Shown in pieces: positions 48,451 through 58,389 of a stretch of 64,000 nucleotides of DNA. Position 1 is the stretch's first letter; each line of letters opens with the position of its first letter. The notes beneath the pieces were generated by a model. That model was given only the letters and a program-made list of their open reading frames with translations, did no database searches and was not told where the DNA came from. The stretch covers positions 3,314,501 through 3,378,500 of the forward strand of contig NZ_CP060713.1 of assembly GCF_014395785.1 (NCBI RefSeq), read 5' to 3'. Both the position numbers and the translations under genes were made by a program. The stretch is from Nocardioides mesophilus (GTDB taxonomy: Bacteria > Actinomycetota > Actinomycetes > Propionibacteriales > Nocardioidaceae).

Positions 48451-48750
48451 ATGCCTGAGATCACCCGTGCGGAGGTGGCACACCTCGCCGACCTCGCGCG
48501 GATCGAACTGTCCGACGCCGAGCTGGACCACCTCGCGCCCCAACTGGCGGTGATCCTCGACTCCGTCGCAGCGATCAGCGACGTGGCCGCCGAGGACGTC
48601 CCGCCGACCTCCCACGCGCTGCCGCTCACCAACGTGTTCCGCGCCGACGTGGTGGTCCCCGGGCTGACCGCCGAGCAGGCGCTCGCCGGTGCGCCCGAGG
48701 TCGAGGGTCAGCGCTTCAGCGTGCCCCGGATCCTGGGCGAGGAGGCCTGA
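48451..48750 (+). CDS. gatC: Asp-tRNA(Asn)/Glu-tRNA(Gln) amidotransferase subunit C
   Basis: Small stabilising subunit (99 residues) of the GatCAB complex. The start [18 protein letters not shown] and a C-terminal VPRILGEEA are typical. It starts at ATG 48451 after GGGAG. Its TGA shares one base with the gatA ATG. Confidence 0.96.
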
Positions 48751-50273
48751 TGAGCGACCTGATCCGCCGCACCGCGGCCGAGCTGGCCGACGCGCTCGCA
48801 GCGGGGGAGACCTCCTCGGTCGAGCTGACCCAGGCCCACCTGGACCGGATCGCCGAGGTGGACGGCGCCGTCCACGCGTTCCTGCACGTCGACGCCGAGG
48901 GCGCGCTCGCGCAGGCCCGCGCCGCTGACGATCGCCGCGCCTCCGGCGCGACCGCCTCCGCCCTGGACGGGGTGCCGATCGCGGTCAAGGACGTGCTCAC
49001 CACCCAGGGCCTCCCGACCACCTGCGGGTCTCGGATCCTCGAGGGCTGGGTGCCGCCGTACGACGCCACCGTGGTCGCCCGGCTCCGCGCGGCCGGCCTG
49101 CCGATCCTCGGCAAGACCAACATGGACGAGTTCGCGATGGGCTCCTCCACCGAGCACTCCGCCTACGGGCCCACCCACAACCCGTGGGACCTGGACCGGA
49201 TCCCCGGCGGCTCCGGCGGCGGGTCGGCCGCCGCGGTCGCCGCCTTCGAGGCCCCGCTCGCGATCGGCACCGACACCGGCGGCTCCATCCGGCAGCCCGG
49301 AGCGGTCACCGGGACGGTCGGCGTCAAGCCGACGTACGGCGGGGTGTCCCGCTACGGCCTCGTGGCGCTGGCGAACTCCCTGGACCAGGCGGGCCCGGTC
49401 ACCCGGACCGTGCTGGACGCGGCGCTGCTGCACGAGCTGATCGGCGGCCACGACCCGCGCGACTCGACCTCCATCGACCAGCCGGTCCCGGCACTGGTCG
49501 AGGCCGCGCGCCAGGGGGCTGGCGGCGACATGTCCGGCGTCCGGATCGGCGTCGTCAAGGAGCTGACCGGCGAGGGCTACCAGTCCGGCGTCCAGGCACG
49601 CTTCGACGAGGCGGTCCAGCTGCTCGTCGAGGCCGGCGCCGAGGTCGTCGAGGTCTCCTGCCCGAGCTTCGTGCACGCGCTGGCGGCGTACTACCTGATT
49701 CTGCCGGCCGAGGCCTCCTCGAACCTCGCGAAGTTCGACGCGATGCGCTACGGGCTGCGGGTGCTGCCCGAGGGGATCGACGACCCGAGCGCCGAGGAGG
49801 TGATGCGGGCGACCCGCCACGCCGGCTTCGGCGACGAGGTGAAGCGCCGGATCATCCTCGGCACCTATGCGCTCTCCAGCGGCTACTACGACGCCTACTA
49901 CGGCCAGGCCCAGAAGGTGCGCACCCTGATCAGCCGCGACTTCGCCGCCGCGTTCGAGCAGGCCGACGTGCTGGTCTCGCCGACCGCGCCGACCACGGCG
50001 TTCAAGCTCGGCGAGAAGCTCGACGACCCGCTGGCGATGTACCTCAACGACCTGGCCACGATCCCGGCCAACCTCGCCGGCGTGCCCGGCATCTCGGTGC
50101 CCAGCGGGCTCGCCGCCGAGGACGGCCTGCCGACCGGGCTGCAGATCCTGGCGCCGGCGATGGCCGACGACCGGGTCTACCGGGTCGGCGCCGCCGCGGA
50201 GGCGCTGCTGACCGACCGCTGGGGCGGGCCGCTGCTCGGCCAGGCCCCGGACCTGACGGGAGTGACGGCATGA
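48750..50273 (+). CDS. gatA: Asp-tRNA(Asn)/Glu-tRNA(Gln) amidotransferase subunit A
   Basis: Amidase subunit (507 residues) that releases ammonia from glutamine for tRNA amidation. The catalytic triad is visible: K80 ([10 protein letters not shown]), S155 (GGSGGGS) and S179 ([11 protein letters not shown]). It overlaps gatC by one base and gatB by four (ATGA). Same gene order as in many actinobacteria. Confidence 0.97.
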
Positions 50274-51790
50274 GCACGACGACCAGCCCCGAGGTGCTCT
50301 CCTTCGAGGAGGCGCTCGAGCGTTTCGACCCGGCCCTGGGCCTGGAGGTCCACGTCGAGCTGAACACCGCCACCAAGATGTTCTGCGGCTGCCCGACCGA
50401 GTTCGGCGCGGAGCCGAACACCCAGGTCTGCCCGGTCTGCCTCGGCCTGCCCGGGGCGATGCCGGTGGTCAACGAGAAGGCCGTCGAGTCCGCGATCCGG
50501 ATCGGCCTGGCGCTGAACTGCCGGATCGCGCCGTGGTGCCGGTTCGCGCGGAAGAACTACTTCTACCCCGACATGCCGAAGAACTTCCAGACCTCGCAGT
50601 ACGACGAGCCGATCGCCTTCGACGGCTGGACCGAGGTGGAGATCGACGACGGCCAGGGCGGCCTCGAGCGGCACCGCATCGAGATCGAGCGCGCGCACAT
50701 GGAGGAGGACACCGGCAAGTCGCTGCACGTCGGTGGCGCCACCGGCCGCATCCACGGCGCCGACCACTCGCTCGTGGACTACAACCGCGCCGGGATCCCG
50801 CTGATCGAGATCGTCACCAAGCCGATCATGGGCACCCGCGAGAAGGCGCCGCTGGTGGCCAAGGCGTACGTCGCGCACCTGCGCGAGCTGCTGCTCGGCC
50901 TCGGGGTCTCCGACGTGCGGATGGAGCAGGGCTCGCTGCGCTGCGACGTGAACCTGTCGCTGAGCCCCGCCGGCGCCGGCACCCTCGGCACCCGCACCGA
51001 GACCAAGAACGTCAACTCGCTGCGCTCGGTGGAGCGCGCGGTGCGCTACGAGATCGGCCGGCAGGCGGCGATCCTGTCCGCCGGCGGATCGATCGTGCAG
51101 GAGACCCGGCACTGGCACGAGGACACCGGGGTGACCACCTCGGGCCGGGAGAAGTCCGACGCCGAGGACTACCGCTACTTCCCGGAGCCCGACCTGGTGC
51201 CGGTGGCACCGGCGGCGGAGTGGGTGGAGGAGCTCCGCGGCGCGCTCCCCGAGCCGCCGCGCGTGCACCGGGCCCGGCTGCAGGAGGCCTGGGGCTTCTC
51301 CGACCTGGAGATGCGCGACACCGTCGGTGCCGGAGCCCTGCTGCTGGTGGAGCAGACCGTGGCCGCCGGGGCCTCCCCGCAGAGCGCCCGGAAGTGGTGG
51401 CTCTCCGACATGGCCCGGCGTGCCAACGAGCAGGGCGTCGAGCTCGACGCGCTCGGCGTCACCCCGGCCGACGTCGCGCGGGTGCAGGCTCTGGTGGACG
51501 AGGGTCGGATCAACGACAAGCTGGCGCGGCAGGTCTTCGACGGCGTCCTCGCCGGCGAGGGCACCCCCGACGAGGTCGTGACCGCTCGTGGCCTCGAGGT
51601 GGTCTCCGACGACGGGGCGCTCTCGGCGGCGGTGGACACCGCGATCGCGGCGCACCCCGAGGTCGCCGACAAGATCCGGGACGGCAAGGTCGCCGCGGCC
51701 GGGGCGCTGATCGGCGCGGTGATGAAGGAGATGCGCGGCCAGGCCGACGCCGGCCGGGTCCGTGAGCTGATCCTGGAGAAGCTCGGCTGA
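50270..51790 (+). CDS. gatB: Asp-tRNA(Asn)/Glu-tRNA(Gln) amidotransferase subunit B
   Basis: tRNA-binding kinase/amidotransferase subunit (506 residues). Motifs are [33 protein letters not shown] with Cys residues, [29 protein letters not shown] and a C-terminal tail ending [17 protein letters not shown] (YqeY-like). The ATG is at 50270, overlapping gatA. A cobalamin riboswitch begins about 20 bases after its stop. Confidence 0.97.
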
Positions 51791-51810
51791 CAGGGCCGTG
51801 TCGTGTTAGC

Positions 51811-51937
51811 CTCGGCGCGGCCCGGTTGGGCCACCCAACTCACGCCCACAGGTGGGGGAAGCCGGTCCGAATCCGGCGCTGACCCGCAACCGTAGGTCGC
51901 CTGCTCCCCGGAGCAGGCGACAAGCCGGAACACCCGC
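51811..51937 (+). ncRNA. Cobalamin (B12) riboswitch
   Basis: Adenosyl/hydroxocobalamin-sensing leader. The conserved core reads GGGGGAAGCCGGT, GAATCCGGC and GCTGACCCGCAACCGT (51855-51893), the canonical B12 box. Hairpins precede it: GTTGGG/CCCAAC (51825-51839) and CCCAC/GTGGG (51845-51855). A 12-bp stem (51896-51907/51910-51921) follows, then the closing AAGCCGGAACACC box (51922-51934). It lies 86 bases upstream of the toroid-protein gene and would repress the operon when corrinoid is plentiful. The 5' edge is approximate. Confidence 0.93.
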
Positions 51938-52016
51938 TGTGACGCGTCCTTACACACACGCTGTCGTGGAAAGCAGCGGGTGGCGTCCCTGCCTCCCGTC
52001 TGCGTGCAGCGGGAAA
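51931..52016 (+). promoter_or_regulatory. Predicted riboswitch expression platform
   Basis: CACCCGCTG (51931-51939, overlapping the 3' edge of the aptamer) is perfectly complementary to CAGCGGGTG (51974-51982). A second CAGCGGG (52007-52013) precedes the ribosome site GGGAAAGG and can pair with CCCG at 51995-51998. The alternatives suggest switching at translation rather than a terminator. Confidence 0.45.
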
Positions 52017-52022
52017 GGCACC

Positions 52023-53789
52023 ATGAACGTCCTGCCCTCATCCCCCCGGGAAACCGGCCACCCGATCGCGCGCACCGGTCGGGCACGTCGCCGGGCGGCG
52101 GTGGCCCTCTCGAGTGCCACCCTCACCGGCCTCGCGCTGGCCGGCCCCGCGCCGGCAGCCCTGGCCGCGCCGGCGGCTGCGGTCTCCGCACCGGCCGCCA
52201 CCTCTGCCGGCTCGGCCGCGAGCCTGGTCCCCGACGGCGCCGACCCCCGTCCCGTGCTGGTCGGGGCCGACTGGCTGACCGGTCAGCTCGACGCGAGCGG
52301 CCTGCTCCACAACGACCAGTACGACTTCGCCGACTACGGGCTCACCGCCGACGCCGGCTTCGCGCTCGACGCGGCCGGCGGGCACCAGGGCGCGGTCACT
52401 GCGATCACCGACGCGCTCGCGGCGCACGTGGACTCCTACACGACCGGCGTCGACTTCGACGCTCCTGACGACGTGTACGCCGGCGCGGTCGCGAAGGTAC
52501 TGTCCCTGGCCACCAGCCAGGACCGCGACCCCCGCACGTTCGGCGGGGAGGACCTCGTCAGCCGCATGGAGTCGGTCGTGCTGACCGGGGGTCGGCTGAA
52601 CGGGCGGATCAAGGACGTCAGCGCCTACGGCGACTACAGCAACACCATCGGGCAGGCCTTCGCCGCCCGTGGGCTCACCGCCGCGGGCTCGCCCCTGGCC
52701 GACGACGCGACCGGCTTCCTGCTCCAGCAGCAGTGCCTCGCCGGCTACTTCCGGCTCACCTTCGCCGCGGAGACCGCGGCCGAGCAGAGCTGCAACGCCG
52801 GGGTCCGGGCCGACGACCCCGCGGGGCAGGCCGACCCCGACGCCACGTCGCTGGCCACGCTGCAGCTGATCCGGATCGCCGCGTTGCCGGGGCTCGACCC
52901 GGCGCTCGCCACCCGGGTCGACGACGCGATCGGGGCGGCGACGACGTGGTTGCGCAGCCGCCAGCAGCGCAACGGTGCGCTCGGTGGCGGCACCGCCACC
53001 GAGGCTGCGAACACCAACAGCACCGGTCTGGCCGGCTGGGTCTTCGGCGAGGCGGGGGAGACCTCCGCGGCTCGCCGGGCCGCCGCGTGGGTGCGCGCCC
53101 GGCAGGCCGACGAGCCGCGCCGGTGCCCCTCCGGGCTCACCGCCGAGACCGGGGCCATCGGCTACGACGACGCCTCCGTCGCGGCGGGTCGCACCGGTGC
53201 GATCCCGGTGGAGAGCCGCGACCAGTGGCGCCGGGCGAGCACCCAGGCGCTCCCCGCGCTGCGCTGGGCACCTGCCGCCGCGGCCCCGGCCCTGCGGGGC
53301 CCGCGGGACTACGTCCGGGCCGGCCGCGACGCCCGGCTGGTCGCGACCGGGACAGCCCCCGGCTCGCGGGTCTGCTTCGTCCGCGGCGCGAAGGCGACGG
53401 CACGCACGGCCGGAAGCGCCGGCCGGGCCGCGGCCGACCTCCGGATGCCCTGGGGCACCCGGGAGACCACCGTGTCGCTGCGCACCGGCGCCGGCACGAT
53501 CGCCTCGACCACCGTATCGGTCCTGGGCCGCGCCCGGTTCTCCGTCGAGCTCGCCCAGCGGTCCGTGCCGCGTCGCGGGATCCAGACCGTGACCGCGACG
53601 GGTCTCGCGCCCGGGGAGTCCGTGGTGGTCCGCTACCGCGGCGAGCAGGTCCGGCGCACCGAGGCCGACCGACGCGGCCGGCTGACCACCCGGTTCCGGG
53701 TCGGCAGCCGTCTCGGCGAGGTGACGGTCCGGGTGCTCGGCGAGTTCCCCCACCGCGACGGCGCGGCCACGTTCACCGTGCGCCGATGA
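52023..53789 (+). CDS. Secreted alpha/alpha-toroid protein (prenyltransferase/squalene-oxidase repeat; intrinsic-factor alpha-domain-like)
   Basis: 588 residues. A signal peptide (Arg-rich, then LSSATLTGLALAGPAPAALA, about 24-48) is followed by an alpha/alpha-barrel region (about 78-418) built from helix-pair repeats. Repeat segments are YGLTADAGFALDAAG, YGDYSNTIGQAFAARGL, DATSLATLQLIRIAAL, TNSTGLAGWVFGEAG and GYDDASVAAG. A C-terminal Ig-like region (about 425-588) follows. This fold is shared by terpene cyclases and by the N-terminal domain of intrinsic factor/transcobalamin; no terpene-cyclase acid motif is evident. The ATG at 52023 lies behind a cobalamin riboswitch. The next gene overlaps by ATGA. 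I infer corrinoid capture outside the cell. Confidence 0.85.
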   Translation: MNVLPSSPRETGHPIARTGRARRRAAVALSSATLTGLALAGPAPAALAAPAAAVSAPAATSAGSAASLVPDGADPRPVLVGADWLTGQLDASGLLHNDQYDFADYGLTADAGFALDAAGGHQGAVTAITDALAAHVDSYTTGVDFDAPDDVYAGAVAKVLSLATSQDRDPRTFGGEDLVSRMESVVLTGGRLNGRIKDVSAYGDYSNTIGQAFAARGLTAAGSPLADDATGFLLQQQCLAGYFRLTFAAETAAEQSCNAGVRADDPAGQADPDATSLATLQLIRIAALPGLDPALATRVDDAIGAATTWLRSRQQRNGALGGGTATEAANTNSTGLAGWVFGEAGETSAARRAAAWVRARQADEPRRCPSGLTAETGAIGYDDASVAAGRTGAIPVESRDQWRRASTQALPALRWAPAAAAPALRGPRDYVRAGRDARLVATGTAPGSRVCFVRGAKATARTAGSAGRAAADLRMPWGTRETTVSLRTGAGTIASTTVSVLGRARFSVELAQRSVPRRGIQTVTATGLAPGESVVVRYRGEQVRRTEADRRGRLTTRFRVGSRLGEVTVRVLGEFPHRDGAATFTVRR

Positions 53790-54793
53790 GCAGCGTCCGC
53801 AGGTTCGCCGGGGCCGCAGTCACGCTCGGCGCCGTGGCGGCGACCCTGCTGGCCGCGCCGGTGGTCGCTCCCGCGAGCGCCGCCGGCGGCTTCTGCAGCG
53901 GCGGCGGGGTGAACGTGGTGGTCGACTTCAAGGAGCTCGGCGGCGGCGTCCAGAAGGGCTGCGACCCGAACGGCGCCGGCCGCACCGCGGACCAGGTCGC
54001 TCCGGCCGCCGGCTTCACGCTCAGCTATGTGAGGAGCCAGCCGGGCTTCGTCTGCCAGGTCTCCGGGGAGCCGACGGCCGACCCCTGCGCGAAGACGCCA
54101 CCTTCGAACGCCTACTGGGGCTTGTGGTGGTCCGACGGCACCTCGGCCACGTGGACCTACTCCAGCCAGGGCGCCGGGTCGTTGAAGGTCCCCTCCGGCG
54201 GGTCGATCGCCTTCTCCTGGAACGGCGACACCGGGTCCAACCCGCCGGGCGCCGCACCGGCGCAGGCCACGGCCGGCACCCCGACGCCGACGAAGTCCCC
54301 GACCAGCGCGCCCACCGCGTCGGCCGGCGGGGGCGGGACCGGGGGCGCCGGCGGGACCGGTGGCAGCGGCGGGACCGCCACGGGCGGGACCGGCTCGGCC
54401 GGGACCGGTACGGCGCCCGCTCCCACCGGCCCGACCGCCGCCGTCTCGACCAGGGCGGCGCCCGCGGCGGGCACGAGCAAGGGCGGGAGTCCCGCGTCGG
54501 CTGCGTCCGACGGGGCCGGCACGACGAAACGCGCCCACCCGGGCCGGTCCGGGAGGTCGGGACGCCACGCGGCGGGGAGGACCGCCACAGCGGCGGCCTC
54601 GCCGGGCGTCGCCCCGACCGGCCCGGTCACCTCGCCCGCGGCTGCCGCCGAGACGCCGCAGACCGCGCCCGCGGCCGCGACGGTCGAGGAGGGCCGGCTC
54701 CCGCTGTGGGCGCCGCTGGGGCTGCTCGGGGCCGTCCTCGCCGGAACGGCCACCGCGCTCGTCGTACGCAGACGGGGACGCCCTCCGCTGTGA
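53786..54793 (+). CDS. Membrane-anchored DUF4430-like (transcobalamin beta-domain-like) protein
   Basis: 335 residues. A signal peptide (1-33) leads to a small domain at 37-148: GVNVVVDFKELGGGVQKGCD, AAGFTLSYVRS and AYWGLWWSDGTSATWTYSSQG. Four Cys (C37, C59, C90, C101) could form two disulfides. The pattern resembles the DUF4430 / transcobalamin C-terminal domain. A ~150-residue Gly/Thr/Ala/Pro linker follows, then a membrane helix (about 306-326) and a basic tail RRRGRPP; no LPxTG is present. The protein would hold the domain away from the membrane. It overlaps the toroid gene by four bases and precedes ecfT by seven. Confidence 0.82.
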   Translation: MSSVRRFAGAAVTLGAVAATLLAAPVVAPASAAGGFCSGGGVNVVVDFKELGGGVQKGCDPNGAGRTADQVAPAAGFTLSYVRSQPGFVCQVSGEPTADPCAKTPPSNAYWGLWWSDGTSATWTYSSQGAGSLKVPSGGSIAFSWNGDTGSNPPGAAPAQATAGTPTPTKSPTSAPTASAGGGGTGGAGGTGGSGGTATGGTGSAGTGTAPAPTGPTAAVSTRAAPAAGTSKGGSPASAASDGAGTTKRAHPGRSGRSGRHAAGRTATAAASPGVAPTGPVTSPAAAAETPQTAPAAATVEEGRLPLWAPLGLLGAVLAGTATALVVRRRGRPPL

Positions 54794-54800
54794 GCCGACC

Positions 54801-55901
54801 ATGACCGGCGCCCGCGTCGCCCGTGACCTGCACCCACTCGCCTGGTGGGTGTGGGCCATCGGGCTGGGCACGGCGGCGTCGATGACGACGAACCCGTTGC
54901 TGCTGGTGCTCGTCATGGCCACAGCCGCGTTCGTCGTCGCGTTGCGCCACGGCGACCACCCCTGGGCGCGGTCGTTCCGGCTCTACCTCTGGCTGGGGCT
55001 GGGCATCGTGGTGATCCGGGTGGTGTTCCGGGTGCTGCTCGGCGGTTCCGAGGGCGGCACCGTGCTGGTCGCGCTGCCGGAGATCCCCCTGCCCGACTGG
55101 GCCGCGGGCATCCGGCTGCTCGGGCCGATCACCACCGAGGACATCCTCGCCGGGCTGTACGACGGGCTGCGGCTGGCCGGGATCGTGATCGCGGTGGGGG
55201 CCGCCAACGCGCTGGCCAACCCCAAGCGACTGCTGAAGTCGATGCCCGCCGCGCTCTACGAGATCGGCAGTGCGCTGGTGGTCGCGGTCACCGTGCTGCC
55301 CCAGCTCGCCGACAGCGTCCAGCGGGTCCGGGCGGCGCGCGCCCTGCGTGGTGAGCCGGCCAGCCGGTGGGGCGGTCTGCGCCGGCTGGTGGTGCCGGTG
55401 CTCGAGGACGCGCTCGAGCGGTCCATGCGGCTCGCCGCCGGCATGGACGCCCGCGGCTACGGCCGCTCCGGCTCGGCGACGGCCGGGCAGCGGCGCACCA
55501 CCGGCACGCTGATGGTGGTCGGGCTGCTGGGCATCTGCGTCGGGATCTACGCGGTGCTGGACCTGACCGCGCCGCGGCTGCTCGCCGCGCCGATGCTGGT
55601 GGCCGGCTGCCTCCTGGCCCTGGCCGGCTTCGTCTCGGCCGGCCGGCGGGTCGAGCGCAGCCGCTACCGGCCGGACCCGTGGCGGGTCGCCGAGACCGCG
55701 GTCGCGGTGTGCGGGCTGGTCACGGCGACCGTGTTCGTCTGGGTCGGCCGGTCCCACCCGTTGCTGATGCACCCGGGTCTCGACGAGGCCCCGGCGGTCA
55801 CCGTGACGCTGCTGGCAGGCATCCTGGTGGCCGGGATCCCGGCGTTCGCCAGCCCGCCGCCGCAGGACGCCGTACTCCCGCGGGAAGGAGCCCGTCGATG
55901 A
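54801..55901 (+). CDS. ecfT: ECF transporter T component (EcfT/CbiQ family)
   Basis: Membrane coupling protein of 366 residues with about seven hydrophobic segments. The two diagnostic coupling-helix motifs are present: ARALRGE (179-185) and MDARGYG (215-221). It joins the ATPase to the S component. The ATG at 54801 is the first Met after the preceding stop, seven bases downstream. The C-terminal ~130 residues add extra helices beyond standard EcfT. It overlaps the ATPase gene by four bases. Confidence 0.92.
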   Translation: MTGARVARDLHPLAWWVWAIGLGTAASMTTNPLLLVLVMATAAFVVALRHGDHPWARSFRLYLWLGLGIVVIRVVFRVLLGGSEGGTVLVALPEIPLPDWAAGIRLLGPITTEDILAGLYDGLRLAGIVIAVGAANALANPKRLLKSMPAALYEIGSALVVAVTVLPQLADSVQRVRAARALRGEPASRWGGLRRLVVPVLEDALERSMRLAAGMDARGYGRSGSATAGQRRTTGTLMVVGLLGICVGIYAVLDLTAPRLLAAPMLVAGCLLALAGFVSAGRRVERSRYRPDPWRVAETAVAVCGLVTATVFVWVGRSHPLLMHPGLDEAPAVTVTLLAGILVAGIPAFASPPPQDAVLPREGARR

Positions 55902-57478
55902 TCGAGCTGAGCGGTCTCAGCTTCGGCTACGACGACCAGCAGGTGCTGCGCGACGTCGACCTGGTCCTGGAGGACGGCGAGTTCGTCGTGGTCGCCGGGC
56001 GCACCGGCGTCGGCAAGTCCACGCTGCTGGGCACCTTCAACGGGCTGGTGCCGCAGTTCACCGGCGGCACCCTCACCGGCGACGTCCTCGTCGACGGCCG
56101 CAGCGTCGTCGAGCTGCCGCCCCGCGAGCGCGCGCACCTGGTCGGGTACGTCGGCCAGGACCCGGCCGCCGGGTTCGTGACCGACACGGTGGAGGAGGAG
56201 CTGGCCTACGGCATGGAGCAGCTCGGCCTCGACGCGGCCACCATGCGCCGCCGGGTCGAGGAGACCCTGGACCTGCTCGGGCTGGCCGAGCTGCGCGACC
56301 GCGACCTGGCCACGCTCTCCGGCGGCCAGCAGCAGCGGGTCGCGATCGGCTCGGTGCTGCCCATGCACCCCCGGCTGCTCGTGCTCGACGAGCCGACCTC
56401 GGCGCTGGACTCCACGGCCGCCGAGGAGGTGCTCGCCACGCTCACCCGGCTGGCCCACGACGTCGGGATCACCGTGCTGATCGCCGAGCACCGGCTGGAG
56501 CGGGTCGTGCCGTTCGCGGACCGGCTCTGCCTGATCGAGCACCGGGGGCTGCGGGTCGGTCCGCCGGCGGAGGTGCTGCGGGAGGCTCCCGTCGTGCCGC
56601 CGATCGTGGCGCTCGGCCGGCTGGCCGGCTGGGACCCGCTGCCGCTCTCGGTGCGCGAGGCCCGCCGCCGGGCCCGGGGCTGGACCTCCACGATGGCGCC
56701 CCCGCAGGTGAGCGTCGGGTCCGCGGCCCGACCCGTCCTGGAGGTCCGCGGGGTGAGCGTCTCCCACGGCCGCCGGCCCGCGGTCCGCGACGTCGACCTG
56801 AGCGTCGCCGCGGGCGAGATCCTCGCGGTGATGGGGCGCAACGGCTCCGGCAAGTCGACGCTGCTCTGGACGATCCAGGGCAGCAAGGCACGCGACCGCG
56901 GGTCGGTCCGCGTGGCCGGCTCGGATCCGGCGAAGCTGGCTCCCGGCAGCCGCCGTACCCTCAGCGGACTGGTGCCGCAGACCGCCGCCGACCTGCTCTA
57001 CCTCGAGACGGTCGCCGAGGAGTGCGCCGCCGCCGACCACGAGTCCGACCGGCCCGCCGGGAGCTGCCGGACGCTGCTGGAGCGGCTGGTGCCCGGCGTC
57101 CCCGACGACCGGCACCCCCGCGACCTCTCCGAGGGGCAGCGGCTGGCGCTGGTGCTGGCGATCGTGCTCACCGCGGAGCCGCCGCTGGTGCTGCTCGACG
57201 AGCCGACCCGGGGCCTGGACTACCCCGGCAAGGAGGCCCTGGCGCGGATCCTCGCGGCGCTCGCCGCCGAGGGCCGGGCGGTGCTGGTGGCGACCCACGA
57301 CGTGGAGTTCGTGGCCGAGGTGGCCGACCGGGTCGTGGTGCTCGCCGAGGGGGAGGTGGTCTCCTCCGGGCCCACCGCCGCGGTGGTCGCGGAGACCCCG
57401 GCGTTCGCGCCCCAGGTGTCGAAGATCCTCGGGCCGGAGTGGCTCACCGTCGCCCAGGTCAGCGGAGCGCTGCGATGA
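55898..57478 (+). CDS. ecfA: Fused ECF ATPase (EcfA-EcfA')
   Basis: 526 residues with two ABC domains in one chain. Domain 1: Walker A GRTGVGKST (34-42), signature LSGGQ (140-144), Walker B LVLDEP (161-166). Domain 2: Walker A GRNGSGKST (313-321), altered signature LSEGQ (410-414), Walker B LLDEP (432-436). This replaces the usual EcfA1/EcfA2 heterodimer. A linker with basic residues lies about 255-275. ATG 55898; four-base overlaps on both sides link it to ecfT and the S component. Confidence 0.95.
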   Translation: MIELSGLSFGYDDQQVLRDVDLVLEDGEFVVVAGRTGVGKSTLLGTFNGLVPQFTGGTLTGDVLVDGRSVVELPPRERAHLVGYVGQDPAAGFVTDTVEEELAYGMEQLGLDAATMRRRVEETLDLLGLAELRDRDLATLSGGQQQRVAIGSVLPMHPRLLVLDEPTSALDSTAAEEVLATLTRLAHDVGITVLIAEHRLERVVPFADRLCLIEHRGLRVGPPAEVLREAPVVPPIVALGRLAGWDPLPLSVREARRRARGWTSTMAPPQVSVGSAARPVLEVRGVSVSHGRRPAVRDVDLSVAAGEILAVMGRNGSGKSTLLWTIQGSKARDRGSVRVAGSDPAKLAPGSRRTLSGLVPQTAADLLYLETVAEECAAADHESDRPAGSCRTLLERLVPGVPDDRHPRDLSEGQRLALVLAIVLTAEPPLVLLDEPTRGLDYPGKEALARILAALAAEGRAVLVATHDVEFVAEVADRVVVLAEGEVVSSGPTAAVVAETPAFAPQVSKILGPEWLTVAQVSGALR

Positions 57479-58389
57479 GGCGCGGCCACCAGGGCGGGGT
57501 CGTGCCGCTGCTGCCGCGGTCCGGGCTGGTCCTCGGCGTCGCGACGCTGGCCGGCCTGATGATGTTCCTGTGGCCGCTGCTGGTCCGGGTGCCGACCACC
57601 GGTGCCCAGGTGCAGCCGCCGTTCCTGTTCCTCGCGCTGCTGCCGGTGGTGATCGTGGTGGTGCTCGCCGAGCTGTCCGAGGGCGGCATGGACTCCCGGG
57701 CGCTGGCGGTGCTGGGGGTGCTCAGCGCGGTCAACGCGGTGCTGCGCGGGGTGAGCGCGGGGGTCGCCGGCCTGGAGCTGGTGTTCTTCCTGCTGATCCT
57801 GGCCGGCCGCGTCTTCGGCCCCGGGTTCGGCTTCGTGCTCGGCTGCACGTCGCTGTTCGCCTCCGCGCTGCTGACCGGGGGAGTGGGGCCGTGGCTGCCG
57901 TACCAGATGCTCACCGCGGCCTGGGTGGGTCTGGGCGCCGGGCTGCTGCCGGGCCGCCGCTCGGGGCGCCTGCGTGGCCGCGCCGAGATCGCCCTGCTGG
58001 TGGCGTACGGCGTCGTCGCCGCCTACGGCTTCGGCCTCTTGATGAACATGTCGAGCTGGCCCTACGCGATGGGGATCGCGCTGCCGGGCCACGAGGGCGG
58101 CCTGTCGTTCGTGCCGGGCGACCCGCTCACGGAGAACCTGCACCGGTTCTTGATCTACACCCTGCTCACCTCGACCGGGGGCTGGGACACCGGGAGGGCG
58201 ATCACCAACTCGGTGGCGCTGCTGCTGCTCGGGCCGGCGGTGCTGGCGACGCTGCGCCGGGCCCGGCGCCGGGTCCGGGTGGTGCGTGTGTCCACCGGAG
58301 CTGGTCCGGACCGGCCCCGTCCGTCGACGGGTGCGGGGGACACCGAGGGCGTACTGTCGGGACAGCGAAGCCGTTCCGGCTTCCGATGA
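57475..58389 (+). CDS. ECF transporter S component, probable cobalamin specificity
   Basis: Substrate-binding membrane protein of 304 residues with about six to seven hydrophobic segments (VLGVATLAGLMMFLWPLLV, FLFLALLPVVIVVVLAELS, LVFFLLILAGRVFGPGFGFV, GVGPWLPYQMLTAAWVGLGA). It resembles ECF S components of the CbrT-like group; I cannot prove the specificity. Position in a cobalamin-riboswitch operon beside EcfT and EcfA makes cobalamin or a precursor the likely cargo. The C-terminal ~40 residues are polar and Arg-rich. It closes the operon. Confidence 0.88.
   Translation: MRRGHQGGVVPLLPRSGLVLGVATLAGLMMFLWPLLVRVPTTGAQVQPPFLFLALLPVVIVVVLAELSEGGMDSRALAVLGVLSAVNAVLRGVSAGVAGLELVFFLLILAGRVFGPGFGFVLGCTSLFASALLTGGVGPWLPYQMLTAAWVGLGAGLLPGRRSGRLRGRAEIALLVAYGVVAAYGFGLLMNMSSWPYAMGIALPGHEGGLSFVPGDPLTENLHRFLIYTLLTSTGGWDTGRAITNSVALLLLGPAVLATLRRARRRVRVVRVSTGAGPDRPRPSTGAGDTEGVLSGQRSRSGFR

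Follow-up and report, generated by a model that had tools for sequence, protein, structure and literature searches.

A riboswitch-linked toroid and a membrane-tethered beta-grasp protein in Nocardioides mesophilus: a probable split transcobalamin-like system for B12 capture

What does a small four-cysteine domain on a very long membrane stalk do directly in front of the genes of an ECF transporter, and with which partner does it work? The question is raised by a 64,000-nucleotide stretch of the genome of Nocardioides mesophilus (contig NZ_CP060713.1, positions 3,314,501 to 3,378,500; hereafter the window), and it concerns a poorly known subject, the extracellular capture of B12 by Gram-positive bacteria ahead of an ECF importer. 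We consider it probable that the domain is one half of a split transcobalamin-like B12 binder, and that this membrane-tethered beta half delivers B12 to the ECF importer.

Operon and protein layout

The features on which the analysis is based are listed below by position in the window.

48451-51790, genes resembling gatC, gatA and gatB, upstream (sequence reading)
51806..51955, + strand, cobalamin riboswitch RF00174, before the operon (cmscan 44.6 bits, gathering 31.5)
52023..53789, + strand, secreted alpha/alpha-toroid protein, 588 aa, without lipobox or C-terminal anchor (sequence; family profile A2)
52254..53279, + strand, alpha/alpha-toroid domain (alignment A2)
53277..53786, + strand, C-terminal region of the toroid protein, probably Ig-like modules (weak PF16640 Big_3_5 match, E 0.057)
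53786..54793, + strand, tethered transcobalamin-beta-like protein, 335 aa (ORF translation, alignment, locus survey)
53786..53884, + strand, signal peptide, residues 1-33, cleavage position predicted (sequence; hydrophobic segment 7-34)
53885..54232, + strand, beta-grasp (transcobalamin beta/DUF4430-like) domain, residues 34-149, with C37, C59, C90 and C101 (AF2, Foldseek, alignment A1)
54233..54703, + strand, low-complexity stalk, residues 150-306 (composition)
54704..54766, + strand, C-terminal transmembrane helix, about residues 307-327 (hydropathy)
54767..54790, + strand, basic cytoplasmic tail RRRGRPPL, residues 328-335 (sequence)
54801..55901, + strand, ECF T component, CbiQ family (PF02361, E 5.4e-10)
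55898..57478, + strand, fused double ATPase, CbiO-type A-A (PF00005, two stretches, E 2e-49)
57475..58389, + strand, ECF S component (PF12822, E 3.7e-10)

The operon was established directly and consists of the cobalamin riboswitch, the secreted toroid, the beta protein as second gene and the T, A-A and S components, in this order. Gene starts overlap or nearly overlap their upstream neighbours, the ATG of the beta-protein frame overlapping the stop of the toroid gene, and T, A-A and S stand together as in an ECF-type vitamin transporter operon (PF02361, PF00005, PF12822). The riboswitch was likewise observed directly, and of 16 other loci searched, 10 have an RF00174 match at the gathering score. 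At a distance of 200-450 nt upstream of the first domain, the core box GCTG[AT]CCCGC was present in 50 of 73 loci, compared to 2 of 73 in a control interval. At one locus (L203) RF00174 is on the other strand, in front of a divergently oriented gene, and at another (L201) there are four separate cobalamin riboswitch matches in 18.5 kb, on both strands, around two toroid-beta pairs.

The beta protein contains exactly four cysteines (C37, C59, C90 and C101), all of which are kept in 76 of 76 aligned homologues (alignment A1; four rows are aberrant in appearance only, as a result of trimming or a one-column shift). Its hydrophobic window peaks at residues 309-327 and is followed by RRRGRPPL, and a sequence scan of the protein gave no L[PA]xTG sortase motif. 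These secretion and anchor features, which were directly established, recur among 100 beta-domain ORFs (80 related loci and the window): a C-terminal helix is predicted for 81, and 80 of the 81 also carry a basic tail. An LPxTG-type motif before a C-terminal helix, as in a sortase-anchored wall protein, occurs in 0 of 100, window included. Since relatives share this layout, it is no artefact of reading frames in GC-rich DNA. The four-cysteine domain, the C-terminal helix, the basic tail and the lack of a sortase motif were already claimed in the preliminary description of this DNA, and all are present. It had further described the stalk as about 150 residues rich in Gly, Thr and Pro. A long low-complexity stalk of about 157 residues is indeed there, but Ala is the commonest residue, followed by Gly, Thr and Pro (25% Ala, 21% Gly, 17% Thr and 13% Pro in residues 153-307, which are without an aromatic residue or Cys); Ser is also among its residues.

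Fold of the beta domain

Pfam and NCBIfam scans gave no match to the beta protein or the toroid of the window up to E 1. The cut-off of the DUF4430 profile (PF14478, 23.8 bits) was not reached, with no match in the window's protein at E<=1 and none in its own genome at E<=10, and only 5 of 76 beta relatives were matched by DUF4430, with a best E of 0.025. PDB searches with the single beta and toroid sequences returned low-complexity or chance matches only, and the same was true of the A1 beta profile against the PDB sequences.

An AF2 model of the domain, made from 76 sequences (pLDDT 89.2, pTM 0.83), was more informative. With Foldseek, its 14 top PDB matches were all transcobalamin or haptocorrin, the isolated human TC beta domain among them, and rank 15 was 3u7z, which is itself matched by the DUF4430 profile. 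The E-values for the beta domain alone are marginal (best 1.3e-3, none below 0.001; TM 0.5-0.6), so the argument rests on the consistency of the match list. By hhalign, the beta family profile was aligned with a DUF4430 profile, built from DUF4430 proteins of the same phylum, with a probability of 84% (E 7.5e-6, 94 columns), and the control against the unrelated toroid profile gave 0.1%. The order of strands and helix in the model (E9-14 E22-27 H35-41 E46-48 E56-59 E76-83 E107-114), compared by eye with the topology in PMC1796856, comprises a beta-grasp core with a beta-hairpin insert after the helix, as in the transcobalamin-like clade. Also in keeping with this clade, the window's beta protein is a secreted or surface protein encoded in an operon with CbiO/CbiQ-type genes. 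The fold relationship was established directly, and together with the profile comparison it supports placing the protein in the transcobalamin-like clade, taken in the wider sense, of the SLBB/DUF4430 superfamily. The DUF4430/transcobalamin-beta relationship first suggested for the domain is thus backed by the Foldseek list and hhalign.

Toroid partner and tether

The toroid family profile A2 matches squalene-hopene cyclases (E 9e-25), and PF01122 (Cobalamin_bind) is matched, weakly, by 10 of 57 toroid members, with a best E of 0.00087. The toroid had been thought to lack an anchor of its own, and for the window this stands: no hydrophobic segment was detected at the threshold used, and no C-terminal anchor. 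Several relatives' toroids, however, are anchored. Among 60 toroid-only proteins 49 are without a C-terminal helix, 7 have an LPxTG-like motif and a helix and 4 a helix only, and in toroid-beta fusions other anchors were seen, namely CWB2 repeats (L202, L204, L206) and SLH repeats (L216).

Transcobalamin has toroid and beta domain in one chain, whereas the window has them on separate, overlapping genes. Natural fusions were directly observed in relatives. In L084 and L048 a toroid, a beta domain, a 56-residue stalk and a helix follow one another in a single chain, which is the transcobalamin order; other fusions are beta-toroid-helix (L032, L033), toroid-Ig-beta without a helix (L031, L090) and beta-toroid-beta (L034). 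The full length of a model of the L084 fusion (pLDDT 93.1, pTM 0.82) could be aligned with transcobalamin and intrinsic factor (E 4e-8, rmsd ~19 A). In this model the mutual placement of the predicted domains differs from that in holo-transcobalamin, and because of the rmsd the full-length agreement was not counted as proof of the holo arrangement.

Among 150 genomes of the family, the beta domain was found in 108 by single-sequence search and in 120 by profile, 10 of the latter being weak and partial. The named relatives in the genome collection belong to Nocardioides, Marmoricola and Aeromicrobium. A strong beta match was present in 110 genomes, a strong toroid in 93 and the S component in 129 (one S-less genome in these counts was deduced to be G145). 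It was found that a strong toroid is always accompanied by beta (93 of 93, and no genome with toroid without beta), that beta occurs together with S in 107 of 110 genomes and that 17 of the 110 have no detectable toroid; the rows are related genomes, and Fisher p-values for them are not to be taken as probabilities. The three beta genomes without S (G014, G045, G122) are fragmented or incomplete assemblies. Phylum-wide, 67 of 396 genomes match, and the linkage, which was established directly, is conserved: ECF genes adjoin the beta gene in 19 of 20 phylum stretches. At one locus (L086:7876-8191, in G018) the beta gene is split into two frames by stops or a frameshift, with the surrounding operon present.

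Because natural fusions exist and the co-occurrence is one-sided (93/93), with no strong toroid lacking beta, we argue that the toroid and beta proteins work together. The same counts allow a second reading, which we regard as unlikely, in which the ECF transporter has the tethered beta domain as its sole B12 receptor and the toroid works apart from it, for example as a secreted carrier that is recaptured or shared, without a 1:1 complex. In its favour, S accompanies beta in more genomes (107/110) than the toroid does (93/110), no toroid was detected in 17 of the genomes with beta, and an isolated TC beta domain binds cobalamin (5np4; PMC5599065). Moreover, in G053, G077, G083, G089, G104, G110 and G113 the toroid gene is retained although it lies on another contig or at a great distance from the beta-ECF locus. 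A toroid with a separate task would nevertheless have to be reconciled with 0 of 93 strong toroids occurring without beta, with natural fusions in several domain orders and with the overlap of the two genes in the window.

The joint action of toroid and beta domain leaves the purpose of the tether to be considered. As beta is accompanied most constantly by the ECF transporter (107/110), and less so by the toroid, delivery to the importer is a likelier function of the tether than recruitment of the toroid, and with 17 of 110 beta genomes lacking a detectable toroid, joining to the toroid is not obligatory everywhere. The preliminary description had the tether bring the domain to the toroid, a view that these counts make less likely, and it had called the split into a free toroid and a tethered beta domain an unusual design, which in fact is the usual arrangement in the family. 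The beta protein adjoining the T gene is tethered in 52 of 58 cases with a toroid gene just upstream.

The suggested role of the stalk in lifting the domain above the membrane is general in the family, with a median stalk of about 130 residues where the toroid gene is directly upstream. By a polymer estimate, about 157 disordered residues would span roughly 10 nm on average and roughly 55 nm at full stretch, which fits a spacer that extends into the inner wall zone but not across the entire wall. Eight genomes, mostly of one genus, have two separate tethered beta proteins, one with a stalk of 110-140 and one with a stalk of 41-57 residues (L038, L060, L075-L080). In L068 and L073 a single chain carries tandem beta domains, which are joined by a linker of about 95-101 residues and stand on a proximal stalk of 44-50, and a second beta protein at L049:6251-6868 ends in three SLH repeats, not in a helix.

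In a tree of beta domains (121 columns; many forks unresolved) the short-stalk paralogues located after S group together as a distinct set, and in several genomes the fused beta domains cluster apart from the solo beta of that genome. The fused label changes 5 times on the best tree, one change being forced by strongly supported branches. That stalk length simply tracks the split or fused state was suggestive only (medians 130, 56 and 46; Mann-Whitney p 6e-5, on phylogenetically non-independent rows), and stalks of 38-55 residues were also found beside a separate toroid (L032, L033, L050, L060, L078). A strict coupling of Ig-like modules in the toroid with a long stalk was also considered, and it fails.

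A PMT-family mannosyltransferase is encoded in the source genome, so O-mannosylation of the Thr/Pro-rich stalk is possible. One might therefore take the beta protein, which is secreted, of low complexity and rich in Thr and Pro, for a structural or adhesive surface protein with a stalk that could be a glycosylated rod, linked to B12 by nothing more than a shared promoter. We give this idea hardly any credence in view of the domain fold, the operon order, the riboswitch box and the co-occurrence with the S component.

Proposed B12 capture and known systems

The source genome is one closed contig of 4.49 Mb. CbiC and CobN were not found in it, the lack of these corrin-ring marker genes being directly established, and five B12-binding domains are present. 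Judged from this gene content, the organism appears to use B12 and yet to be unable to make the corrin ring, which gives the system a bearing on B12 sharing in microbial communities. In the family, confinement of beta to B12 auxotrophs was rejected, as there was no association with CbiC (kept in 61 of 110 beta genomes versus 22 of 40).

We infer that B12 is the ligand of the toroid/beta pair. That the pair binds cobalt instead, or some other corrinoid or precursor such as cobinamide or an incomplete cobamide, seems quite improbable to us, since free cobalt would be unused for the corrin ring in a genome without CbiC and CobN, and since fold and architecture fit cobalamin binders. What speaks for such a ligand is that CbiQ/CbiO-type modules also move cobalt, that the riboswitch senses B12 status and not the transported substrate, and that the window's S component has no recognisable sequence kinship to a solved B12 S component, its sole named matches by sequence being weak ones to folate-type S components.

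For B12 as the ligand, the following course of events is proposed. The riboswitch would permit expression of the operon under B12 scarcity. The first gene would then give a secreted alpha/alpha toroid, the alpha half, and the second a beta-grasp domain held on the membrane by the disordered stalk of about 157 residues, the helix and the basic tail. B12 would bind the tethered beta domain, or come with the free toroid, and toroid and beta domain would close over it, B12 probably being the glue that joins the halves. This B12-dependent joining is proposed by analogy with human TC-alpha and TC-beta, which, when made separately, were joined only upon addition of cobalamin; intrinsic factor is reported to act alike (PMC5599065). 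The tether would hold the loaded complex near the ECF transporter, and the S component would presumably take over the B12.

The group of short-stalk paralogues, the separation of fused and solo beta in the tree and the two stalk classes suggest an extension of this scheme, which we put forward tentatively and with more doubt than belief. In Actinobacteria, B12 might be passed along a two-station relay, with an outer toroid-based unit that captures and at least one membrane-tethered beta domain that receives and hands over to ECF S. The outer unit might be a toroid alone or fused to beta, either free or wall-bound through LPxTG, CWB2 or SLH anchors, and the stalks would mostly be about 110-230 residues beside the T gene and 41-57 for the second paralogue. 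The window might then have the simplest form, a free toroid and one long-stalk beta closing on B12. If true, the window would be a natural counterpart of the split-transcobalamin experiment.

Secreted transcobalamin-like proteins in Gram-positive bacteria, with toroid fusions and surface anchors, were described by Burroughs et al. in 2007, who found their genes beside CbiO/CbiQ, a second paralogue being present in some cases, and suggested that they scavenge B12 (PMC1796856). The window's locus belongs to this kind, and its family shares with it the signal peptides, Gram-positive surface anchoring, toroid fusions, CbiO/CbiQ operons and occasional second paralogue. The 2007 proteins are toroid-SLBB fusions with a Gram-positive anchor motif, whereas here toroid and beta are mostly separate, beta is on a sortase-free helix and a long stalk, and the window's protein is missed by Pfam DUF4430. 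New compared to 2007 are the split as the usual state, the sortase-free stalk, the varied anchors of the outer unit and a divergence past the reach of Pfam.

The animal transcobalamin, intrinsic factor and haptocorrin are alike in having an alpha/alpha toroid and a C-terminal beta-grasp domain, in the beta fold and in the order seen in the relatives' fusions. They differ in that the window's halves are separate genes and its beta half is equipped with a long stalk, a membrane helix and four conserved cysteines; the sequences are about 20% identical, and the fused model places its two domains differently from holo-transcobalamin. The B12 importer ECF-CbrT (PMC5997447) is of the same transporter class with the same likely substrate; the S component of the window gives no clear sequence match to solved B12 S components, and in a term search of the ECF-CbrT paper, transcobalamin and intrinsic factor turned up in the reference list only. 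BtuG and BtuH of Bacteroides (PMC6143338, PMC8941943) are B12-binding surface lipoproteins that likewise catch B12 for a dedicated importer; they belong to an outer-membrane system of a different phylum and are likened here by function, not by fold.

Among the titles and abstracts listed from the open-access literature we found no experiments on a split system of this kind. How B12 is caught ahead of the ECF importer is a question to which this widespread split relative of human transcobalamin, with its riboswitch, gives a testable answer, and it offers the animal architecture in separable parts. It also allows names to be proposed for proteins that Pfam and NCBIfam leave blank.

In the genus mates G011, G033, G046, G055, G062 and G068 a strong beta match is absent and all that was found is an S component of divergent sequence (48-52% identity), and the window's S is up to 77% identical to genes from other genera; from these identities, the operon of the window may have been acquired or replaced. 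In L212, L213 and L214 (G373, G491 and G157) a single ORF of 1013-1196 residues combines T, A-A and S, and it adjoins a short beta ORF of 186-189 residues without stalk or helix.
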